A stretch of 64,000 nt of DNA. Origin: Dicyema japonicum. Taxonomy: Eukaryota > Dicyemida > Rhombozoa > Dicyemidae. Under the pieces are notes generated by a model that was given only the letters and a program-made list of their open reading frames with translations, was not told where the DNA came from and did no database searches. Both the position numbers and the translations under genes were made by a program. The first letter of the stretch is position 1. Each line of letters begins with the position of its first letter. The stretch covers positions 170,393 through 234,392 of the forward strand of contig RDEW01000008.1 in the NCBI GenBank assembly GCA_011109175.1, written 5' to 3'. This document shows positions 14,824-57,740 of the stretch, piece after piece.

Positions 14824-17219
14824 TAATTTTTCGTTTGAGATTTTTATCGGCCAGAAGATTCCAGTCAGTATGCGCAGTTGACTTCTGTGGAAAGTTTATA
14901 GCCTTTCAAAATTGTTTTTCGAGGTTCCCCATGTTCTGGAATTGTATATCAGTATTGGCTTGATAAACGTGTCGTATAATCTGACACGTAGTTTCAGTGA
15001 AACACGTCTTTTTCTATCCATATGTTGTACATTCTTTGAAGTATATGGTTATCACCACATTCCTTTGACAAATATCTTCGGGGTCTCCTAGTAGTGAGCC
15101 GTGTTTTTTTGTCCAGAGTTCGTCATTTTTTGACTTGGCTCGTTCGATTAGTGTGTAGTCCATTTTTGTAATATTTATGTGCAGATCCCATTTATTTAAA
15201 GAGTTTAGGCTTGGACTAAAACTCAGTCAAGTTGGCTATTCTGGTCATTACACACAAAGTTTACATTATCCGCGTATAACAATTCAATTGTATCTTCGTA
15301 TTTAGAACCCATTTCCTTTCTCAGCTCCCTGAGGGCAGCTTCGAGGTATATGATGAATAAAACTTGGGTTAAGGAATCACCTTGTGGAGTTCCCATGTTG
15401 ATGCTGAAACTCTTTAAATGGTTAGTTCCTATTTTCATGGATAGACCAGCTTCAGAAAATAATAGACTTATCAGGCAGTCCTCGTCATGCTGTTCCTGTA
15501 AATACCCATGAGTTTTTCTCTGTTGATGCTGTCAAAAGCCTTCGTTAGATCAATTCTTAGGATATAAATGACTTTCCTGTAGTTGTGACATATTGATGTC
15601 AGCCATCGATGACTCCACTCGATATCTTCTAAACCCACTTTGACTTTGGGAAATGTATTTTTCCACTGGCTCTCGGATACGGTTAACCACTATGATCGAT
15701 AATGTCTTCCTGATAGTTGAGAGTAGAATAATAGGCCTTAATCAATCCAGCGATCCCTCTTTTTTCCCAGGTTTGTGTATCGGAATTAAGACTTCATGTC
15801 CTAATAAAAGTGAACAGTGAAGTTCCATCGACTCGTATAACCGGAGCATGTTTTAGTATCTCGCTCTGTGATGCCATCATAGCCAGCTGAACGATTGTCT
15901 TTTAGGTGTATGAATGCATTTGTTTTTTCCTTTATTGTAATTTTTTGTAAGATGTCTTGGATTTCCAATAAATTTAGGTATATTCACCCCCAACTGAATT
16001 AAACTGTACCTCGAAGTGTTTGGCAATATGGTTTGCTTTATCCTCTGGGTTTTGTAAATAATGACCCGCGTTGTCGCAGATTTTCAGCAGCTTTTTCGCA
16101 GTTCCTCGTGTAAGTAATTTAACAGGGAAAACATTCGTCTTCCATACTGACAGTTTTCAATTTCAGTCGCCTTATCGTCCAAATATTTGTGCCTAATGTC
16201 ATTCGACCGTTTTTTATCAAATATGATATTTGATTACGTTTTTTCTTTAATGCACTTTTATTCGAATTTTAACTTCCCAGTTTTGAACGTATTTCCTTCT
16301 GCAGTTCCGACAATTCTCTTATTACGGGGTCATGAATAACTATTCCGGTCTTTTTCCTGGTATCCAACAGTCTCTGTCGCCGACAGTGTTAAGATATCCA
16401 GTCGAAGGGGTGCTACTGGTTTAAACATCCCGCAACCGTTTAGAGACATTTTGTTGGTATCTCTTTTTCCGAGTGTCAAAAGTCAACAATTCCACAGCCA
16501 TACGTTATTTAGAGTTACTCTTTTTCTTTACTCCTTCAATTCCGAAGTATCGTTTAGGATTTAATCTGGCCACTGTCAGTTATAGTCCTTCCATAACTCA
16601 TAGAGTCTGACAACAGTCTCTTTAAAGAGATTGGGCAGATAATATAATCAATTTGGTTATAAATATACGTGTTATCGCCGTCTTTGGACTTTCTTGTGCC
16701 AACCCAGGTGGTTTTGTGCTTTGCAGGGTATTCAAACGTGGTTTTGCATAGATACAAATTTGATGAATTACAAAAATCAACGATAGAGTGTCCAGAGAGA
16801 TTTCGATATCCTCTGCCATGTTTTCCCATTTCTTAATCCTTCTCATGTCTGCTTTAGCATTCCAATCACCACAGAAGAACGTTAGTGTAGATTTATGAAT
16901 TTGCATATGTGTTTTCAACAGGATTTTGTAAAACTCGTCCAACTCGTCCATATTTCTTGAAACTCTGCCCATGTGCGGAACATATAGTTGATAACAGTCA
17001 TCATAGTATTGTTCGTGGGCGATAAACGGAATTGCATTACTGCCACACGATCATTGGCTCCATACTTTATACACGTAGTTGATTAGGTTCCAGTTGATTG
17101 CAGAACCAAAACCGTAGTGACGATTGTCTGATGGGAGTAAGATATCCTGTAGTTTCTAAATGGTTCTTCGTCTCCAAGAGCATTATTTGTCTCTTGTAAG
17201 CAGCTATTTAAATAGTCGC

Positions 17220-17545
17220 GTGGCGCCATGTGGTGCTTCGTGGCTAATTGGTTGAAGTTTCAGTTTTGTTTTCTCTGTCCTCCTCTTTCTTCCTATTAGA
17301 GTGGCGTCATGTGATCCAACTGTCTAGGTGGCGCCCACTGCCAGGCCGGTACGAAAAAGGATCATTTGCTCTCCCCCACTCCACTGGAGTGGTTTCCACA
17401 ACTGCAACTATGGACGTCTTTCACCCTTTGTGTTGATTCCGGATGGACTCTTTCTGTAAAAGTGGAAACTGGATACACTTAATTAGTTGTTTACTTTAAC
17501 TTCTTTCTCGGTGTATCCGGGGTTAATTAATGATAATAATGTAAG
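17220..17545 (+). mobile_element. Short LINE-related element (5' and 3' motifs)
   Basis: It contains two 'gtggcg(c/t)catgtg' motifs (about 17220 and 17297), which resemble the start of the group A LINE at 17840 ('gtggtgtcatgtgg'). It ends with 'tttctcggtgtatccggggtta', a group A-like 3' terminus. Only about 300 bases lie between, so this is an extreme internal deletion or a non-autonomous derivative. Its relative is 7940-8210 on the minus strand. Confidence 0.45.
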
Positions 17546-17830
17546 CAGCAGATATTAATTTTGTAACGTGACAGATCTTCAGATAGTTGTTCCCTCTTGC
17601 TTAGAGATGAGAGGCCTCGAACTAAGAGTTTGAATTTTAGCATGATAAATACATTTTTTCCAAAGAAAAACAGAAGCACGTCACCACTTCAACCAACAAG
17701 TTTATTAAAAAAATTTAATAGATCAAGAATTATTGTTAATTGCGACAAATTAATATTATTATTAAAAAACACTTTCATAATTGCGCCAAAAACTCCATAT
17801 ATTAATAACTCCGGTTAGTGTGGATTTTGA

Positions 17831-19312
17831 ATGTTAGCGTGGTGTCATGTGGCTCACCAGAAACGGTCTCACCCATTCCAAAATGGAACGAAAAGAGCCA
17901 ACAGCTTCTCCCCACCGTCCGGTGGTCCTCTCATCTCCTGTGTCTTCGACCCTGTCTGGTGTCCCCATTTATCAAAACTTTTGATTCTTCTATGTGGGGA
18001 CGTCGAAAACAATCCTGGTCCATGGAGATGTTTTACAATTATACAACTGAATACGAATGGGATCAGGAAGAAAATCTTTGAACTCCGGGCACTCCTCCGC
18101 GAAAATGAGGCTGACCTCGCTTTAATACAGGAGTCAAAGCTATCTCCCTCCATACCAACACCCTCTTTTCCCGGATGGTTTCCTCCGCGTAGGTCCACCG
18201 CTACATACTTGGCTACCCTATCGCAGTTCATTGCCGATGGTTTTAACACCCATCCCCCGTTTCACAAACCACAATCTTGGTTTCTATTGACATCAACAAA
18301 GCTTTTGACATTGTTTCGAGAAAAATCCTGGTAGGAAAAATATTTTCTACTAATATTCGTCCGAATGTGAAATTATGGCTTGCCAACTTTTTGTCTGGAA
18401 GACGTGGAAGAGTAGTCAGTGGTGATCTCAGATCTAGATCACGATTACTACCGAACGGGGTACCACAGGGGTCTCCACTTTCACCAATTCTATTCAACTT
18501 ATTCCTACACGACAAACCTAATGATGGAGACGAAGATTCCCTCCTATTTTCCTACGCAGACGATGTAGTCATTGCATTACGGAACCGTTCGACGCAAGTC
18601 ACATCTTTAAAAACTCAGACAAAATTGAACATTCTCCACGATTGGATTGTTGGCAATCGACTAACGATTTCTGCAACCAAGTCTATCTGTTCCACATTCA
18701 TGTCGGACCGTCGTTCAATGATGAACCGAGTCTTTTCATTGGTCCCACTCGGATTCCAGTGACAAGGTCCCCCACTGTTTTTGGAGTCAAGTACGACAGC
18801 CTTCTCAAATTCAACTCCCACGCAACAGACATGATCACCAGGGGCCTCCAGAAAGCTAACGTTATACGCGCCCTTGTCCGGAGGACCACGAGGAACATGG
18901 ACTTTTCCGTTTCTACTCTCTACCAACAAACAATCGCGCCTGCCATTGAGTATGCCTCCGTTGCATGAAGATTCGGGCTATCGGAGTCTTTGGTCCAAAG
19001 AATCAACTCGATATACCGGAAAACAATCAGTATGTTTTCCCTACGTAATGGATCAACAGTCGACCCACTACTCATGGAAGCTAAGATCCGTAGTCGTGGC
19101 TCCGGATTTCTTCGCCTCTGTGAGGAAGATGGAAATCCGCTTCGCTTGATCCTTTCCAAGGCAAGAAAAAACCGATTGGATAAAAAATTCCCCTCCCCGA
19201 TCGGATTCCTCTGCAAGAGCGAGAGAAGGCTCTTCCGGAAAGTAGTGGGGACGATGGAAGATCACAGACGTCGAATGGCACAAGTGATTGCGAAAACTGG
19301 GATCACCTAACT
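17831..19312 (+). pseudogene. Group A LINE ORF2, internally deleted, with N-terminal 2A peptide
   Basis: The ATG at 17831 opens a frame of about 62 residues ending in a 2A-type sequence. The APE endonuclease start follows directly ('IQLNTNGIRKKIFELRALL' and 'DLALIQESKL'). Near 18195 the endonuclease breaks off and reverse transcriptase begins ('LATLSQFIADGFN', then after a one-base frame break 'VSIDINKAFDIVSRKIL', 'LLPNGVPQGSPLSPILFNLF', 'LLFSYADDVVIALR'). A C-terminal region runs to 19310 ('TIAPAIEYASVA' and 'DPLLMEAKIRSRGSGFLRL'). The 3' terminus is near 19345-19360 ('ggtgttcccggggttattaa'). Jockey/CR1-like by motif style. The internal deletion and frameshifts make it non-functional. Confidence 0.85.
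17999..18022 (+). other. 2A-like ribosome-skipping motif DVENNPG|P
   Basis: In the frame opened at 17831, residues 50-64 read 'LLILLCGDVENNPGP'. This matches the 2A consensus D(V/I)ExNPG-P, including the upstream Leu-rich stretch and the Gly before Asp. The Pro after the skip site is followed immediately by the APE endonuclease. 2A sequences at the start of ORF2 are known from some non-LTR elements of trypanosomes, sea urchins and molluscs. This one would release a 63-residue leader. Confidence 0.88.
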
Positions 19313-19429
19313 GTATGACGCTTTTGTCTTTCTTTCTCGGTGTTCCCGGGGTTATTAAAATAAAATAAAAATATATTAATAACTTTAATAAATTACAAAC
19401 TATTTACTTATATGTAATGTCAGATATTG

Positions 19430-19659: not shown

Positions 19660-20300
19660 CTAACTAGTGTAGTAAGCCGCCCGAATACATGATTGTTGTG
19701 TTTTACCTATATTTGAAATTTTCTTATTCATATGACATATAATCGATACTGGGCAAGTTCTAAATCATAAGTTGTTCCTCATCGGTAATTGTGACAATAG
19801 ACATGATCTTTTTTCGTAATTTAGAAAATTCTTTGTGCGAGAGTCCCTGATTACACATCTCAGAGTTACGTTCAATAATATCGAGGCCGCATCTTTTAGG
19901 ATTTCATAAGCCACTCAGTTTAACCGCATCGTCCCATCATCCAAATATCAATAATTGATAAAAGTGCCATTTACAAGGCCTGCCTCGTCGACTTCTACTA
20001 AAAGACCACGGTAAAACCAAACTAATTATCACGTGATCTCGACGATGACTTCTCTTCAATTGTTCCAAAATTTTACTCCTAGTTTCCTGGAGGGAGTTCG
20101 ACCCCTGAAAACGAATTGATATTTTTTAGATCCCCGATCATCAGGAGTGTGATGAAGCATGTATTCCTTGACAAAAAAACAACTCCTATGCAAATCGCTG
20201 AATAGATTACAAATACTTGACTCACAGCACTATTCCTCATGAATAGAAGTTTTAACATTCAGAGAATCGCTTATTTACTCAGGGCAAAACCGTAATATTC
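19660..20300. other. Duplicated sequence without a recognised gene
   Basis: Shared with 45165-45830. The minus strand has a modest open frame in the second copy (45163-45417) that is broken in the first. Near 20000-20045 lies a 'agaccacggt...aactaatt' block like the 3' end of the LINE at 9605-9655, suggesting a scrap of group A in minus orientation. Confidence 0.4.
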
Positions 20301-21360
20301 CCAACTAGAGCAGTTTGAGCATTTTGATTTGTCTTTCCTCAGCTCTACGGAGCAAATATTTAATGTCAAATTCGACGATGCTACATGGAAGCAAGCTACA
20401 CTCTCAGTTAGATTTGGGAACCTTGGAATCCGTCGTACTTTGGACGTCTCACTTCCTGCACATCTGTCTTCACTCACGGCCTGTAAACCTTTGGTCAGGA
20501 GGATTCTACACTCCCTACCCGATTTCTCAATTGACCTAGACATAATTTACGCACGGAAAGCCTGGAATGCCACCAACCTCTTCCTACCACTTTTACAAGA
20601 CTTTCAGCCAAACCTGGACAATTTATTATGTTGGACTCTTACTGGAATCAGCCAATCAGCACCGACGCGCTTGTTTGCATTCGAGGAATTCCCCGAGAGA
20701 GGTGCCTGCTCAAAGCCATTCCCAATGGAGTTCTGGGTACCTTCCTGGATGATGGATGCGTCTGTATTGGGATCTCATTGCGACTGTGATTAAAAGTATG
20801 TATTCAACATCCGTGCCGATACGGAGACAAGATCGACTGTTTTGGCCTACACTCTCTCTCCTGCAGGAAGAGTGCAGGCATATTTCCCAGACACATGGCC
20901 ATGAATGAACTCGTTAGGCGAGCTTTTGACGCCGCCGGACATCCCTCCATGCTCGAAACTGTCGGCCTTTGCAGACGGGACGGTAAACCAGATGAGATTA
21001 GAATCTTTTCATTTGAAGGCAAGAAACCATTTGTCTGGGACGTTACCTGTAACGACACAATTGCGTCTTGCAACCTACTCTAGAGTGCCTCTGAAGCCTG
21101 TTCTGACACTGAGAAGTCCAAGAAGATGAAACGAGAATAGTACGCTGTCTTACCCAATTATTTTTTGTTTGTTCCACTCGCCGTTGAGACGTCTGGTTCC
21201 CTTGCCCATGGGACGCAGGAATTCTTGAGTCGTCTAGGAAATCAGATCGTTACACGAAAAAAGAACCTCGTGTTCGCATCTGGCTATTCAAGCGACTCTC
21301 GCTCGCTATCCTGAGAGGGAATAGTCACGCAGTCAGGGCAGCGTCTATATAACCTTTTAC
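20300..21360 (+). pseudogene. Group C LINE, C-terminal half
   Basis: Plus-strand blocks in order: 'STEQIFNVKFDDATW', 'ATLSVRFGNLGIRRTL' (20400-20440), a zinc-like stretch 'DCFGLHSLSCRKSAG' (about 20835-20885), 'RHMAMNELVRRAFDAAGHPSM' and 'KPFVWDVTCNDT' (PD-like motif region degraded, 20980-21060), 'VPLAVETSG' (about 21175). The same order occurs in the better copy at 24330-26010. Stops and frameshifts are frequent. It is 5'-truncated, and its first 330 bases are duplicated at 45830-46132. Confidence 0.75.
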
Positions 21361-22713: not shown

Positions 22714-24028
22714 ATGAACAGGACTATTCTTTATATCATAATTATTCTGTTTAGCAAAATAGTCAAAATAAAATGTGATAAGAAATATATTAATTGATTC
22801 ATATGTAATTTATAAGAATCCTTCTAAAGTATATTTTCGTTAACTTTAGGAATATAGTTTATCAAAGTTACAATTCGATGAACAAATTGATGTATGGCAA
22901 ACTATTGGTACGTATTTGTTTTCATTCACTAACATAAAATTTAAACTTCTTTCATACTTCTACAATGAGTTTTATGCTTTTGACTTAGTAACAAACATTG
23001 ATTATGGTACGTTTTTAGTTGTACTTAAGCTGGTATGCAATATAATAGTATCATAGAGATTCCTAAAACTAAATTTGGGGAATACTACCGATGTGGTTAT
23101 GCTCATTTTAATTTTTCGAATAATATATCTGTTACATTCTATTCACTCAGGTTGCAATATCACGATAATGGTTTTTTTCCTTATTTTACTGGGAAAGGTT
23201 TTTTATTAATTTTATTTAGCTAATGACTGTAACCCAAATAATGACCCAAATACGCCGATTTTGTTTTTATTTAACCAAAATACAATCCGAGCAGTAATAA
23301 GTGGAATTATCAAAATATCATATATATGACAATAACCAAATTGTACACGTTTGCATTGATTCTTAGATAACAGATGAGTATTTCGATGATTATTACTATA
23401 ACTCAAAACATAATTATAGTGACAATAAATATATATTGTATGGTAGATTATTCTAAAATATCTATTACGGCGTATAAACAATATGGGAATGAATATCGTA
23501 TTAATAGATTTTCTGTTTGTGTTGGGTATAAATTAAAAAAATGTGTTTCACTTAAAAAGCAATTTAAACAAATTAAAATGGGCGGATATAATCACTGTGG
23601 ATCCATCTCACAAAACTATAAAAATGTGTCTATCGAAATTTCATCTTTAAAATTACAATTATTCCGTGATGATTTGATTTTTGAATTTATTGGAGATGGT
23701 AAATAAATCCGACTGAATTTTAGATGAAGGATGCTTTGAAGCACAATCATCTACTGAAATTAAAGAGCAAAAAACACGATTAAACATCATTAAGATGGTT
23801 AGTAACCTCGACTAAATTTTAGATAAAATAAGTTTTGAAGAACTATTATCGTCTGAAAGTAAATCCGTAAAAAAACTGTCGAAACATCAAATAATTGGAA
23901 TCGTGTGTGGAGTTGTCGCACTAGTGGTGTCATTGGTACTATTTATAATGCTTACTGTCGTCATTGCTAATATTTATATCAAAATGAAATCTTGTAAAAA
24001 ATCATTCTTCACCGAACCATTCATTTAG
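22714..24028 (+). CDS. LAMP-like type I membrane protein, multi-exon with micro-introns
   Basis: ATG 22714 starts a signal peptide ('MNRTILYIIIILFSKIVKIK'). Proposed GT-AG introns: 22829-22849 (21 nt), 23007-23056 (50 nt, or 23+24 nt around a 3-nt exon), 23198-23219 (22), 23343-23366 (24), 23419-23446 (28), 23699-23723 (25) and 23802-23822 (21). Stop 24026-24028. The lumenal part contains Cys-X37-Cys and Cys-X36-Cys loops ('CGYAHFN...ANDC' and 'CGSISQN...DEGC') with a shared 'L+LQ' beta-strand motif, the loop size of LAMP proteins. A single membrane helix follows ('IIGIVCGVVALVVSLVLFIM') and a short basic tail ending FTEPFI. Two frame breaks remain: near 22796, and in a TA run at 23320-23328. 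They could be sequence errors or decay. Paralogous to 61652-62467. LAMP identity is tentative; the membrane topology is more certain. Confidence 0.6.
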
Positions 24029-38260: not shown

Positions 38261-40524
38261 CTTCTATCTTCCAGTTACATAGAGAGATGACAAACTCAGG
38301 AGACAGTAAAACTTGAAATTTTAAACGAAGGAAGCGTCGATTCCATGTAGGATCCAGGCTCGAATCTTAGGCTAACTGCTGAGTTACTTTTAAAAATAAA
38401 AATCTATAAATTGATCAGAAAATTATTTTTTATATAAAAACTTTAATTTTGATTATAAATAAATTTTATTATTTAAACAAACAAGATTAATGCTTGCGTG
38501 GTGTCATGTTGTTTTTATATTTGTAAAAGAAGTGTGCACTATAAGCCAGCTATAAAATTATAAACATATTTCAATAGATTATAGCTTACGCTTTGTTTCC
38601 GGCAAAAAACCAATATATGCCTTTCGTCATCAAAAATAAAGAATTTTGAAGATTTTTAAGGTTAACTTTAACTTTTGTCTATAGGGTGACCAATCTCTAT
38701 TATTTTGATACCTCTGATAACTTCACATATGAATAAACCCTACTCGTCTACTGTGAGTAAAGAGGCCCAAAGAGATTGGACTTAGAGAAATTCAAGACAA
38801 TTGGGATTACTGATTACAGGTGACGAAGACTTAAGGAAACAAAGAGATTATCCATATTCGTCTTCAAAAACTCAAACACCTCTGGTCAAGCAAGAGACTA
38901 ATCTATTATGCATGATTCCACAACACGTCTGAAATTCTATGATGCATTTATAATCTCAAAATATAATGTTAATACATGGGAACTATTGCTTTCCTCAAAA
39001 ACAATTTCGTGAGGTCATCGGTGGTCAATATTTGAAAAGAGTCTATAACTGAAGTATTTTTTACAAGATCAGAAGATTATCTGGGACAATCATCGAAGAT
39101 AGTTGTAAACTCGTTGTACATGTTCTACGCCTACACTCTGTGCTGGACAGGTGAAAGGACCCAAACTCAGATCCATAACAGAAGCTATAAGGTTCTGAGC
39201 GGATTTGCGATAGGTTCTTATGGAATCTCAATTGGAATATTCAATATTTTAAAGAATATAATTTTTTGTTTTCTTGTGCTGTTACTGCTTACAGACCTAA
39301 CAAATTTCCGATGACTAACAATCATGCAGGGACTATTGAAAATGAGCTAAACTACTGCTTCTCGATTTGTTTGACTGAATAATTTTTAAATATTACAACT
39401 GACGCATTATTACTTTTATAACATATAATATCAAATATTTTACAAGTTTTGGATGATTTATGCTCCAAATTTATAATCCAACTTCAAAATGATAATTAAC
39501 TCAATTTCTCTATTCAATGGTTTTTATTAATCAACCTTTTACTATGTGAGCGATTTCATATGAATTACATTCGTATTTACGGGGGATGCTTAAAAATTGA
39601 CCATGATACTCTTATATATCAATATAACTCAAATATTACATAAATTGTATATCCAACATAGTTTATCGCCCAGTATTTCAGTTTAATTTCGAATCATGTA
39701 TACATTGATATCTGCTCCATTGTAATGTTTGCCTAACATTTAATAAATCAGTTAACATCACTCGAATATTAAAGAATGATTCTATTATGGACTATAATGT
39801 TGTGATTTTGAGTAAAAAGTACGGAGTAATATCTACACTTCCAATAATTCACATTGGTTTTAATCCTTAATGCACCAGACTTTTTTTAAATTGACTACCA
39901 CGTGGATTTAATCTCTAAGAGTGTTTAAATTGGTAAATTGTATTTTACTAATAACTTTAACTGTCTATGGTGTGGTACCATGTGGTCCACGTGTCTAAGG
40001 TTGTGCTGCTTTCTGCTTCAACCACTCGAAAATCAAGTTTGTCGAGTATTTTTTCCTCAGAACAAAGAAGTGATATCGGCTTGCAAGACGACGGGAGGTC
40101 ATTGAGTCTTACAAATTTCAGAATTGATTTTATATCTGGGAATCCGAGACGGTATTTGTATGATTATAACTTAATGTTTAGTTTAAAATTAAAAAAATTT
40201 ATAAATTAATAAATTTAAATGTATGCATGGTTGGATACGCAGGACGTGGAGTTTAATATATCAAATTAGAATGAAAGCTGAATGAACTAAAGTGGGATCT
40301 TGAGAGAGCAGAATATAATGTTATATGATAAATATATGTTTAGGCAAAAATAGCTTATTTGAACGATTTATTGTAAAGGACAAAAAGTTAATCCGAGAAT
40401 TTCTCATTCGTATTAAAATTCCTGAAAATGCTTTGATTTCTGCTAATAATTGAGACCGGCATTGTTCGAACGTAATTTTATTTACTTTTATAGGAAATAT
40501 GATTGATAACACTGATACTTCTAA
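38261..40524. other. Intergenic
   Basis: No gene supported. Two copies of the 'gtggtgtcatgt' / 'gtggtaccatgtgg' motif (about 38497 and 39970) resemble the 5' end of the group A LINE at 17840 and may be 5' scraps. The rest is AT-rich and unrecognised. Confidence 0.4.
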
Positions 40525-44282: not shown

Positions 44283-44880
44283 GACAAGGTCCCCCACTGT
44301 CCTTGGAGTCAAGTACGACTGCCTTCTCAAATTCAACTCCCACGCAACAGACATGATCACCAGGGGCCTCCAGAAAGCTAACGTTATACGCGCCCTTGTT
44401 CGGAGGACCACGAGGAACATGGACTTTTCCGTTTCTACCTCTACCAACAAACAATCGCGCCTGCCATTGAGTATGCCTCCGTTGCATGGAGATTCGGGCT
44501 ATCGGAGTCTTTGGTCTAAAGAATCTACTCAATATACCGGAAAACAATCAGTATGTTTCCCTACGTAATGGATCAACAGTCGACCCACTACTCATGGAAG
44601 CTAAGATCCGTAGTCGTGGCTCCGGATTTCTTCGCCTCTGTGAGGAAGATGGAAATCCGCTTCGCTTGATCCTTCCCATGGCAAGAGAAAACCGATTGGA
44701 GAAAAATTCCCCTCCTCGATCGGATTCCTCTGCAAGAGCGAGAGAAGGCTCTATCGGAAAGTAGTGGGGACGATGGAAGATCACAGATGTCGAATGGCAC
44801 AAGTGATTGCGAGGAAACTGGGATCACCTAACTGTCTGACTCTTTTTTCTTTCTTTCTCGGTGTTCCCGGGGTTATAAAT
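44283..44880 (+). pseudogene. Group A LINE, 3' part (within duplication)
   Basis: Same C-terminal region as 18761-19360, starting mid-protein with 'DMITRGLQKANVIRALVRRT'. Small indels relative to copy 1 (for example the 'tctacctctaccaac' site) shift frames differently. The 3' terminus 'ggtgttcccggggttataaa' is at about 44860-44880. Confidence 0.85.
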
Positions 44881-45829
44881 AAAATAAAAATAAAAATATA
44901 TTAATAACTTTAATAAATTACAAACTATTTACTTATATGTAATGTCAGATATTGAACACGTTGCTGGTTAATGGTTGTTGTTGATAAGAATCATCTAAAT
45001 CATCGGAATTATGCGGACTTCTGTGCCGAATTGAGTAAAGAAAACCCCAATCCCATCAGCAAGTGGGATTCTCCACGTCTGACGATCCTTCCTTTGGCAT
45101 AGGTAGCCAGAGTACCTATGCCACATAGGAGTTTCACTACTCCTACCTTCGGCACTTCGAGCCTAACTAGTGTAGTAAGCCGCCCGAATACCTGATTGTT
45201 GTGTTTTACCTATATTTAAAATTTTCTTATTCATATGACATATAATCGATATTGGGCGAGTTCTAAACCATAAATTGTTCCTAATCGGTAATGGTGACAA
45301 TAGACATGATTTTTTATCGTAATTTAGAGAATTCTTTGTGCGAGAGTCCCTGATTACACATCTCAGAGTTACGTTCAATAATATCGAGGCCGCATCTTCT
45401 AGGATTTCATAAGCCACTCAGTTTAACCGCATCGTCCCATCATCCAAATATCAATAATTGATAAAAGTGCCATTTACAAGGCCTGCCTCGTCGACTTCTA
45501 CTAAAAGACCACGGTAAAACCAAACTAATTATCACTTGATTCCGACGATGACTTATCTTCAATTGTTCCAAAATTTTACTCCTAGTTTCATGGTGGGAGT
45601 TCGACCCCTGAAAACGAATTGATATTTCTTAGATCCCCGATCATTAGGAGTGTAATGAAGCATGTATTCCTTGACAAAAAAACAACTCCTATGCAAATCG
45701 CTGAATAGATTACAATTACTTGACTCACAGCACTATTCCTCATGAATAGAAGTTTTAACATTCAGAGAATCGCTTATTTACTCAGGGCAAAACCGTAATA
45801 TTCCCAACTAGAGCAGTTTGAGCATTTTG

Positions 45830-46132
45830 ATTTGTCTTTCCTCAGCTCTACGGAGCAAATATTTAATGTCAAATTCGACGATGCTACATGGAAGCAAGCT
45901 ACACTCTCAGTTAGATTTGGGAACCTTGGAATCCGTCGTACTTTGGACGTCTCACTTCCTGCACATCTGTCTTCACTCACGGCCTGTAAACCTTTGGTCA
46001 GGAGGATTCTACACTCCCTACCCGATTTCTCAATTGACCTAGACATAATTTACGCACGGAAAGCCTGGAATGCCACCAACCTCTTACTGCCACTTTTACA
46101 AGACTTTCAGCCAAACCTGGACAATTTATTAT
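45830..46132 (+). pseudogene. Group C LINE fragment (within duplication)
   Basis: Same as 20327-20629, with 'ATLSVRFGNLGIRRTL'. It breaks off at the N, so the C-terminal remainder of copy 1 is missing here. Confidence 0.8.
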
Positions 46133-46133
46133 N
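46133..46133. other. Unresolved base N
   Basis: A single N essentially at the end of duplication copy 2. Sequence on its right is unrelated to copy 1 after three bases. It may mark an assembly join. Confidence 0.9.
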
Positions 46134-46446
46134 TTGTAGATCCCATCACAACCAGGGGCCTTACAATTCGGCAAATATGAATCTTTGTTCAAATACATTT
46201 TTCGAGAATTTCAACACCAGTCATCCTTTTTCCAATATTAAAACTTTCCGAATTTAGACTCCTTTTTTCCATAATTCTTCGCAAAAATCTGCGCATTTTT
46301 CATTATCAATTGAGATATTAATATTATTTTGTCCTGAATTCAAGTTGTTGTAGAAGGACCTTTCTATTCAATTCGACCATTTGTTTGTCCATACGAAAAT
46401 TCATTTTCGATTCAAATATCGATATTTTTTCTCCAAGACTTTAATC

Positions 46447-54723: not shown

Positions 54724-57700
54724 TTATTATTTTATTTAAAGCACTCCCGAGAAGTCATAAAATTAATCAAGCCTCCCTTGTGCCGTATTTCTAGCCATCC
54801 TCTCTATCAGCCTTTTCCAGGACCCTCTACTTCGTGCCAGTTCCCTTAAGGTATCTAGGTCGTCTGCGGAAGTGAGCTTCAGTCCCACAGCCGACAGGTC
54901 TCCATTCAAAATAGTTGGGAGTGTGACTCTTGGTCTTCCACGGAAACCGGCTCCCGTATGCATTAAGTAGTTTTCCATGGCAATATTCGCGGGTACTTGA
55001 GCATTTAGACGTAAGATATGTCCAAAGAGACTCCATCTTGATCTGAAGATCTCCTCGGATAGTATACCAGATTTGCACTTCGAGTAGAGGTCATTGTTTG
55101 AGATCTTCTTAGGCCACTTGATCTTGATTACTGATTTCAATTGTGTCCTGTGGAAAGCGTCAAGACGGTCCATCTCTTGTTTAGAGATTCCCCAAGTGCC
55201 TGAATTGTAGGTCAGGACGGGGATGACAAAAGCCTTATATATTCTGAGTTTGGTGTTTAATCCCATCCTCTTCTTATGACCCCACATATTCGATACTTTC
55301 TTTAGTGCACACATTGCGAGGATTTTCCTCCGAGAAACATCTTCTGAGTCCCCGAGAAGCGAACCCACCTTCTTTTGCTTTCTCCAAGACTCGTCCGATC
55401 TTCGATCATTGCGTGTAAGTGTTGTGAACTCTGTTTTATCGGTGTTAACGGTTAAGAACCATTTCGAGAATACGTGTGGAAGAACGTTAAGCATGTGTTG
55501 AAGTACTTGAATATCCTCAGAAACAAAGTCCAGGTCGTCCGCGTAGATTATCTCGTTATAATTGTTGCCAACCAGGGGTCTGAACTCTCTTAGTGCGGCC
55601 TCAAGGTAGACAATAAAGAGGACCGGGGATAGTGAGTCCCCCTGTGGAACTCCACGTGAGGTCGAAAAAAAGTTAGAGGTAGAGTCACCAATTTTGACGG
55701 CAAGTTGAGTGTTCCGCATGAGTAAGTGTATTATTTTGACATCGTCAGGCAGTAGAAAACTCTCCAACACTTCCATAAGTTTTCCACGGTCCACCGAGTC
55801 GAACGCACGGGACATGTCGATACCAAGTATCTCAATAGATTTTTTGTATTTTTGGCACAGGGCACAATACCACCTGTGCCCCCATACCACGTCAGCCGTG
55901 GACCTGCCCGTCCGGAATCCACTTTGGCCGTCCGAAAGAAATATGTTCACCCTCTCCTTTATTCGGTTTAAAGCAATGAGGGATAATGTTTTTCGTATGG
56001 AGGTTAGGAGTATAATAGGTCTGAAGTTGTGAGGGGGCCTTTACTTTTTCCCGGTTTTTGTAGTGGAATTAGCCACCCTTTTCCCAGTTCCAGTTCATCT
56101 GCACCCTCGAGAGACCGGTTGAAAATGTTAGTAATCATTTCAATTAGCTCCTCCGGGCCGTATTGTAAAAGTTCTGCAGTAATGAAGTCTGGTCCGGCAG
56201 ATCTTCCGGTATTTAATTTTTTAATAGCTTGTTGAGTTTCGGATATGGTAATAGGGCTAGTTAGAGTGTACTTGTAAGACTTCCGAGATTTCATTGCTTG
56301 GTCAGCCGCGTCCTGTTTGTTGAACATAAGGTCAAAATGGGATGCCAGAACGTTTGCTTTGTTAATGGTCCCGATAACGTCGTGACCAAGGTTGTCATGG
56401 ACAGTTAACGAAATTGGACAGTTTTCTCTGCTAAGAAGCCGGATTGCTTTGAACATTCTTGGTCCGTTCTTGTACTTTAATATGTCTGAGATTTTCTCCT
56501 CAGCTTCATTTTTGGCAAGGAATCTTTGTATTTGTTTGATCTTCGTTAAGACTCTCCCTCTCTGGGTGCGCAGTACTTTGATATCTTCCGGAGCGTTTGT
56601 GTTTTCCATCCGGAGTCTGAGCTCTTTCTGTGTTACAGAGAGTTGTCCGATATCCGGATTACATTGTTTGTGACGAGATTTGGTGATGTGACCAAGCACA
56701 CTAAAGGCTGTGTTTTGGATAGCAACCACTATTTCATCCCATAAGCTGTTTGTCGGCTGATTTTGGTTAATACTGTTGATGCTATCTCTCAGAACTGCAC
56801 TATAACGACATTTGGTGGATTCTTCGTAGCGTAACCTCTCAGTGTCGAAACGTACTGAGGTAAGGCCTTTGTGTTTCCCGTGTATTCCATGGATTCTTTT
56901 AAGTACTAGCCGGGCGACCACAAGTTTATGATCGCTACTTGTTTCAAGTCCACCGTAAGATCTCGAGTCCTGTAGGAGGGCCTTCTGATGTTGCTTGCAG
57001 ATAATATAGTCGATCTGATTGTATATATTGACTGTGTTTCCAGATTTGCCTTTTCTGGTACCAACCCACGTGGTCCTGTGTCTTGCCGGGTGCTTGAAAC
57101 AAGTGTTGCATATGAGTAGGTTGAATGCCGTGCAAAATTGTATTAATGCCTCTCCGGGGATGTTACGGCGGTTTCTACCGTGGGATCCAATACACGTTTC
57201 ACCAGGTCTTGCTTTTCCGGCCCTGGCGTTCCAGTCCCCGGCGATAAAAAGAAAGTAAGAGGATGAAAGTGAGTTGTACACACTTGTGAGAGTAGAGTAA
57301 AACGTATCCAGTTCTTCGATATTCGTTGATACACGTGCTCCGGTTGGGGCATATACATTTATGATGGAGATCACTGAGTTGAGTTTGTTTCCGCATTTGA
57401 TTTGTAACACCGCGACACGGTCAGATACTGCCCATACTCTTGAGACACAGTGAAACAAGTGCCGATGAACAGCAAATCCGAGCCCATAGTGCCTGCAGTC
57501 TGGTGTGAGGGTCAAAAGGTAAAAATTCTGAAACAGTTCTGCAGATTGTTCGGTTATTTTCGTCTCTTGCAAACAACAGACAGAGATGTTGTATTTACTC
57601 AGATCACGCGTCAATTGTTGTTTCTTGTAGCACTGATTGAGGCCTCGGCAGTTGAGGGATCCAAGAGTGAGGGGAGAAACTGGTAAGCAATACGAAGAAG

Positions 57701-57740
57701 ACATAGTGCAAGTAGAGGGACGTCACCACCTCAACCAGTA
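54724..57740 (-). mobile_element. Full-length RTE-like LINE (group B)
   Basis: Flanked by a perfect 13-bp target duplication 'ataggttcgtcat' (54711-54723 and 57741-57753). The other arm of the inverted repeat (about 3690-3725) shows the unoccupied site. The element is 3,017 bp with very short ends: a 36-nt 5' leader and a 39-nt 3' region ending in 'tttaaataaaataataa'. It is the youngest and best preserved LINE of the window. Confidence 0.93.
54763..57704 (-). pseudogene. RTE-like endonuclease/reverse transcriptase, one frameshift
   Basis: Two frames, 57704-56004 and 55950-54763, together about 980 residues, the usual RTE size. APE endonuclease first ('LTLGSLNCRGLNQC', 'CCLQETKITEQ', 'FIAGDWNARAGKARPG', 'TTWVGTRKGKSG', 'SDHKLVVARL'). 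Then RT ('RAFDSVDRGKL', 'RGVPQGDSLSPVLFIVYLEA', 'EIIYADDLDFVS') and a C-terminal domain ('RSRWSLFGHILRL', 'GRPRVTLPTILNGDL'). The break is one missing base in a C-run near 56034. All catalytic blocks (QET, SDH, YADD) are intact. It is either very recently inactivated or the break is a base-calling error in the homopolymer, in which case this is an active LINE. Confidence 0.9.

Follow-up and report, generated by a model that had tools for sequence, protein, structure and literature searches.

A 2A sequence between a translated, conserved 5' module and the endonuclease in LINEs of the dicyemid Dicyema japonicum

A LINE in the window (the whole stretch of 64,000 nucleotides of Dicyema japonicum DNA that was analysed) carries a 2A sequence in frame between a leader of 63 residues and its APE endonuclease. 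The motif recurs in other copies of the element and in other LINE families of the same genome, and it is under purifying selection. The ORF starts close to the 5' end of the element and runs through a conserved 5' module with a covarying helix, P2, whose core is read in different frames in different families. On balance it is fairly probable that the module is kept for a job at the level of RNA or DNA, that the leader is its forced translation and that the 2A sheds the leader; we infer the skipping activity, the job of the module and the benefit of losing the leader from sequence comparison.

In the window, the frame opened by the ATG at 17831 reads MLAWCHVAHQKRSHPFQNGTKRANSFSPPSGGPLISCVFDPVWCPHLSKLLILLCGDVENNPGPWRCFTIIQLNTNGIRKK... 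and its first 63 codons, from the ATG to NPG (17831..18019, +), form the leader, which ends in the 2A peptide LSKLLILLCGDVENNPG/P (17969..18022, +). The stretch CGDVENNPGP is in frame with the APE endonuclease, whose N-terminus is preceded by LLILLCGDVENNPGP. The N-terminal piece of this endonuclease, with Pro as its first residue, occupies 18020..18175 (+) and is assigned by its frame and by the PF03372 and PF14529 matches of a relative (L010); no Pfam match was obtained for the piece in the window. The downstream protein is in frame with the 2A, and the sequence, frame and leader length given in the earlier note, which had been made from the letters alone, were all confirmed. The element satisfies the 2A consensus D(V/I)ExNPGP, and DxExNPGP occurs once in the six frames of the window (about 1.6e-4 expected from base composition). 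The second N of VENNPGP, at the free position x, is particular to the window copy, as the other motif-keeping copies of the family read GDVETNPGP (VDVEPNPGP in L022). The Leu-rich stretch described just upstream of the 2A is likewise present, as LLILLCG in the family of the window copy (family A; family letters were assigned in this analysis), ILLLSG in E, ALILCG in C and SLLLLSG in G.

The window copy itself is dead through an internal deletion, and the intact replicase implied by the earlier note is not there: the frame closes at a stop at 18334, and the copy measures 1,543 nt versus 3,017 nt in L012, about 1.47 kb from the endonuclease to the RT being gone. The remainder past the deletion (18176..19373, +) comprises an RT fragment (PF00078), the C-terminal part and a short 3' UTR. 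The insertion is bounded by a target-site duplication of 11 nt, TATTAATAACT, at 17800..17810 (+) and again at 19374..19384 (+). Between the 5' duplication and the ATG lie extra nucleotides (17811..17830, +), including GTTAGTGTGG, which nearly repeats the 5' end of the element itself. Such partial tandem repeats of the element's first bases before the ATG, with AT-rich spacers, are also seen in L017 and L019 and perhaps reflect template jumping at the 5' end of the RNA. Elsewhere in the window, the 3' end of this LINE recurs at 44468-44897 (93.75% identical to L010), and one ORF piece is present twice (20296-20793 and 45799-46257). Another element at 54763-57722 (-) has open frames of 572 and 425 aa that look endonuclease- and RT-like by eye, with no NPGP there.

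Searched at the protein level (E ≤0.001), the genome to which the window belongs (64.7 Mb, 191 contigs) gave at least 151 matches, with 150 of 903 candidates scored. The copies, whose collection the earlier note had proposed as a check on motif and frame, support the 2A. At its codons, DxExNPGP is kept by 23 of the 28 family-A copies that were compared; the motif is changed in L025, L010, L045 and L046 and disrupted by an indel in L044. Of the 24 copies of family A that are complete at the 5' end, 15 have an open frame up to the 2A, including L028, which lacks the ATG, and L021, which has two compensating shifts. Both counts are for family A alone and omit duplicates (L001-L004, L006, L007); with the rows of family B, the totals become 26 complete 5' ends and 26/35 motifs. 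Copies whose 5' end is incomplete are L009, L010 and L026. The proposed start at 17831 is borne out by the point at which homology begins, which is this ATG in 20 of the 21 copies with a 5' end that was read (the exception is L028). In the eight copies whose target-site duplication reaches 10 nt or more, the duplication and the ATG lie 0 to 27 nt apart, often with a T-run followed by GA(A) in between, and a zero-length 5' UTR with the ATG as nucleotide 1 was dropped for this reason. At the start, two subfamilies, ATGTTAGCG and ATGTTGTTAGCG, show a difference of exactly 3 nt, which preserves the frame.

Nine near-full copies (L011-L013, L018, L020-L023, L025) measure 2,996 to 3,020 nt, the other copies being shorter or longer, and the stop lies about 60 nt short of the 3' end. 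APE endonuclease and RT in one ORF, target-site duplications and 5' truncated copies identify the element as an APE-type LINE. It has a single ORF and no room for an ORF1 upstream, so that the earlier name ORF2 does not apply. The sole uninterrupted frame seen, 1,037 aa with endonuclease and RT (PF03372, PF14529, PF00078), is that of L010, which has NTGP for NPGP and other sequence at its 5' end.

The 2A is seen in nine LINE families of this genome, A-G, K and L. GD(V/I)ExNPGP or a slightly altered form stands before a related endonuclease in families B (L039-L042, L047, L052, L076 and others), C (L053, L054, L069), D (one copy, L050), E (L055-L057, L061, L062, L064), F (L059, L066, L071) and G (L060, L072). 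In family K the 2A is intact in one of three copies (L145) and changed in L144 and L146; the single copy of family L, L147, also carries it. Representatives of A-G vary at third positions, using four Gly codons and four Pro codons, while the 2A residues are constant. Two further families, I (3/3 copies, L138-L140) and J (2/2 informative copies, L141 and L143), share the 5' fold and leader and have no 2A before the endonuclease, and in L141 the frame from leader to endonuclease is unbroken; L142 and L151 depart from the element before the point at which this could be judged. Fusion of leader and endonuclease is tolerated in these lineages, and the 2A, or the shedding of the leader, is therefore not obligatory. 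A tree of 11 families and two outgroups over 56 columns groups I with J (83/89) and does not distinguish gain from loss of the 2A in I/J. A family-E protein query gave 47 database matches, at least 8 with an N-terminal NPGP and 5 with DxExNPGP, so that LINEs with a 2A occur elsewhere as well.

Selection along the leader was estimated by comparing family A (L012) with majorities of family-B copies. The first run used seven B copies, two of which (L052 and L076) were out of register at the N-terminus, and the comparison was repeated with five and four copies. For the last 17 codons, ending in NPGP, dN is 0.06 and dS 0.84 (dN/dS 0.07), a ratio that indicates purifying selection on the 2A stretch. 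The C-terminal half of the leader has dS 0.67 and dN 0.38 (dN/dS 0.57). In the N-terminal half, dS is 0.16 or 0.17 and dN 0.15 to 0.17; the resulting dN/dS of 0.89 to 1.05 (single copies 0.53 to 0.88) means little, as it comes from two synonymous and 7 or 8 nonsynonymous changes. The leader half over the fold has a low dS, as if held at the RNA or DNA level. The earlier expectation that leader codons drift fits the second half, where dS is high, and fails for the first, where it is low. Some constraint on the leader at the peptide level would be compatible with these A-B data, which comprise few changes and were obtained from majority sequences of decayed B copies, 4 to 7 in number.

With 23/28 family-A copies keeping DxExNPGP, nine families showing the 2A and a dN/dS of 0.07 over it, the motif is not a chance occurrence, and copies, other families and selection all back the earlier claim of a 2A before the endonuclease. 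That the motif is an inherited relic, now neutral, might be read from its absence in I and J and its loss from 5/28 family-A copies; such neutrality is highly improbable, however, given the seven compared families that retain the residues through varying third positions and the low ratio over the 17 codons.

In families A, B, E, F, G, I, J, K, L and S, the 5' end contains a shared core like GTGGCGTCATGTGGTTCACC. Genome-wide, the 14-mer GTGGCGTCATGTGG has 145 exact matches (reversed control, 0), and 60 of the 145 core-motif sites were read, with L097 masked. An alignment (A1) of 70 5' ends, 65 of them distinct, was made from 74 candidates less the decayed L094, L121, L129 and L073. In the window copy, the alignment, pair counts and a covariance-model match at 17835-17921 (77 bits, from a model built with the window row) place a pseudoknot at 17841..17901 (+). 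Its parts are P1 (17841-17846/17868-17873, two of the six pairs broken in this copy), P2 (17849-17855/17895-17901), P3 (17856-17858/17865-17867), P4 (about 17876-17888) and J4/2, CGAAAA (17889-17894), all on the forward strand. Across the alignment, 91.0% of the cells of P1 (6 bp), P2 (7 bp) and P3 (3 bp) are paired versus 38 to 58% in slid controls. Both-side changes number 56 cells versus 17.2 in shuffles, a count that relatedness of the rows inflates, and at most 13 in slid controls. The count of further pair types shows no excess over shuffles (19 versus 19.2). P2 alone is 94.0% paired with compensatory change in 5 of its 7 pairs; P1 is 91.7% paired, with compensatory change in one of six pairs, in the A/B clade; and P3 is 82.4% paired with none. 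P2 is the firm part of the fold, and P1 and P3 are weaker. P4 follows P1' as a hairpin of quite different sequence in most families, with a folding energy below the shuffled mean in 55/65 rows. Support for the fold comes from covariation, as minimum free energy folding of the first 90 nt is not clearly better than for shuffled sequence.

The module also occurs without the rest of the LINE. Family S, at 17216-17385 in the window, has two 5' cores, one at 17220 and the other about 80 nt further on at 17301. No endonuclease can be recognised after them, and family S looks like a short non-autonomous element with the LINE 5' module; its second core scores 68.7 bits with a model built with that core. 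Further family S copies are L085, L090, L096, L099, L107, L108, L115, L132 and L134; these copies, the first cores of family S, L109 and L123 have no row in A1. Weak matches or core-like motifs of the module lie at 38494-38555, 39972 and 23920-24023 of the window, two of them model matches at E 0.017 and 0.8.

The helices P1 and P2 cross, and the order P1-P2-P3-P4 is that of HDV-like ribozymes. In such ribozymes, a catalytic C stands at the start of J4/2, and P1.1 forms between L3 and J1.1/4; here J1.1/4 is mostly CA, with a possible TG partner by eye in L3 of E and none in A. The module might be catalytically active and trim the RNA by self-cleavage, the ORF then beginning within a ribozyme, as the helix order, the crossing of P1 and P2 and a 2-nt J1/2 would suggest. 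The first pair of P1 is G.U in 50/65 distinct rows, and a C lies within two nt of the J4/2 A-run in 53/65 rows. A crude HDV pattern gives 5 to 9 parses in the ends of families C, D, E and H, versus 0 to 0.6 in shuffles, and L1Tc (PMC4035085) and R2 (PMC3774820) provide precedents. However, the same pattern finds nothing in A, F, G or at 17301 in the window, F and G show by eye no C where it is expected in J4/2, and searches of the 5' ends against Rfam, at E up to 5 and 10, return no match to HDV. The 5' end of the element does not fall on the first base of P1: CGT and a family-specific TAGC, AAAC or TCTC stand before P1, and family-A copies have at least 10 nt upstream of it. As inserted copies keep these bases, the RNA templates of retrotransposition had not been cleaved at the canonical position. 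For this reason, and for want of an Rfam HDV match, the module is called HDV-like in topology only; self-cleavage is doubtful on the sequences at hand, and trimming of the kind known from R2 and L1Tc seems rather unlikely.

How the module is translated differs between families. The core ATG (17847..17849, +, in the window) starts the leader frame in families D, E, F, G, I, J and L. The distance from this ATG to P2' is mostly 49 in E and 64 in F, I, J and K (55 in one F copy, 73 in one K copy) and, despite the differences in length, equals 1 mod 3 in 42/51 rows of E, F, I, J and K, a count that includes L079 (family L) and L122 (S-like), grouped under E. In G it is 2 mod 3 in 3/4 rows. In A and B it is 48 (0 mod 3) in 13/14 rows, which puts the core ATG out of the 2A frame. 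Family A starts instead at the 5'-end ATG, with which the inner, out-of-frame ATG might compete. In family B, an ATG in frame lies close to the 5' end in 4/6 copies (L039, L041, L047 and L051, not L040 and L042), and the out-of-frame core ATG is lost in 4/4 aligned copies. The 20-nt core is translated as ..AWCHVAH in family A and as MWFTF in family E. The reading frame over the RNA has thus changed between A/B and E, F, I, J and K while the parts of the RNA were kept.

These frames also bear on the leader as a functional peptide, either a targeting signal, as the earlier note had suggested, or a nucleic-acid-binding one, with the 2A yielding replicase that either carries or lacks it. Sea urchin NLR proteins have N-terminal 2A-like signal sequences that show dual targeting (PMC4981915), the C-terminal half of the leader has the dN/dS of 0.57 given above, and GGAQ and KR(T/A)I recur in the leaders of several families. 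But GGAQ and KR(T/A)I are what P1' and J4/2-P2' encode, and in A and B, with their different frame, GGAQ is not made and the pairing stays. Moreover, the leaders of C and D align poorly with those of other families, and the hydrophobic stretch lies far from the start and right before the 2A, as 2A context needs. No support was found for a targeting signal in leaders that vary between families and whose first half is free of clear constraint at the peptide level, and a function of the peptide itself is unlikely.

The preferred explanation, in which the module is what is kept, would work as follows. The element is taken as a single-ORF APE-type LINE of about 3.0 kb whose first ~90 nt are a conserved module, which would act as a DNA promoter (an option modelled on Pr77 of L1Tc), as an RNA pseudoknot for RNP formation or translation, or as both. 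With almost no 5' UTR, the ORF must begin inside or just ahead of the module and read through it, and the leader peptide would need no role of its own. At the 2A, the ribosome would skip the Gly-Pro bond, freeing the 63-residue leader, and the endonuclease-RT would start with Pro. Against this explanation stand the protein-database relatives matched with the family-A protein, of which 0 of 24 have NPGP, the lack of a 2A in I and J, the NTGP in the only uninterrupted frame, and a P1 covariation that in substance amounts to one pair. A more elaborate version would have the start codon in the P1/P2 joint of an HDV-class fold that still cleaves in some families. RNA self-cleavage and the 2A would then act on the same ~90 nt plus the 2A, and cleavage would decide whether the ORF keeps its start; we consider this coding use of a ribozyme-type 5' end a rather improbable extension.

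A 2A splitter is a known kind of device; its placement beside a folded start region is unusual. APE-type animal LINEs with an N-terminal 2A and a single ORF for APE endonuclease and RT were reportedly described by Odon et al. in 2013. The present element differs from these in that a 5' pseudoknot overlaps the leader and the endonuclease follows directly after the 2A; it also differs from relatives P0040 and P0075, which show a PHD-type Pfam domain (PF00628) in addition. To our knowledge, a dicyemid host is a new lineage for 2A LINEs, and R2 is not known to carry a 2A. Titles and abstract openings in a part of the open-access literature, which are no proof of absence, contained no 2A or HDV-like fold in dicyemid LINEs. 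Another likeness is to L1Tc/ingi of trypanosomatids, in which Pr77 (a promoter at the DNA level and an HDV-like ribozyme at the RNA level) is combined with a 2A, and a conserved 5' module with an HDV-like fold is present in long and short elements (PMC4748587, PMC4035085). The two Pr77 hallmarks of SIDER2 recall the two cores of family S (PMC4748587, PMC4035085). In L1Tc, however, the Pr77 ribozyme lies within the 5' UTR and an RNase H is encoded (PMC4748587, PMC4035085), whereas the ORF of the present LINEs extends across the fold, and cleavage is unsupported. R2 resembles these LINEs in its HDV-like fold at the 5' end and in tandem duplications seen at certain 5' junctions; it differs in its site-specific insertion into 28S and in 5' junctions that its cleavage site accounts for (PMC3774820). 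The sea urchin NLR proteins similarly have a 2A near the N-terminus of a larger protein, their leader being a signal sequence (PMC4981915).

As regards the host genome, gaps between exon matches are about 20-34 nt, and a genome of 67.5 Mb with a mean intron of 38.2 bp is given for D. japonicum (PMC6736024). Dicyemids are minute parasites of octopuses. An innexin found here has as its nearest relatives six proteins deposited as Octopus sinensis innexins (P0025-P0030), to which it is 44-54% identical, and it is at most 33% identical to those of other animals, including molluscs; the Octopus entries are possibly dicyemid contamination of the octopus assembly.

The arrangement offers a testable reason for an N-terminal 2A: a LINE with almost no 5' UTR would translate its structured 5' end, and the 2A would remove the product. 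Should the RNA also cleave itself, families I and J, which lack the 2A, would serve as a natural control. Within one genome, sister families with and without a 2A on the same module, and the same RNA read in different frames, may allow the function of the RNA to be separated from that of the peptide.
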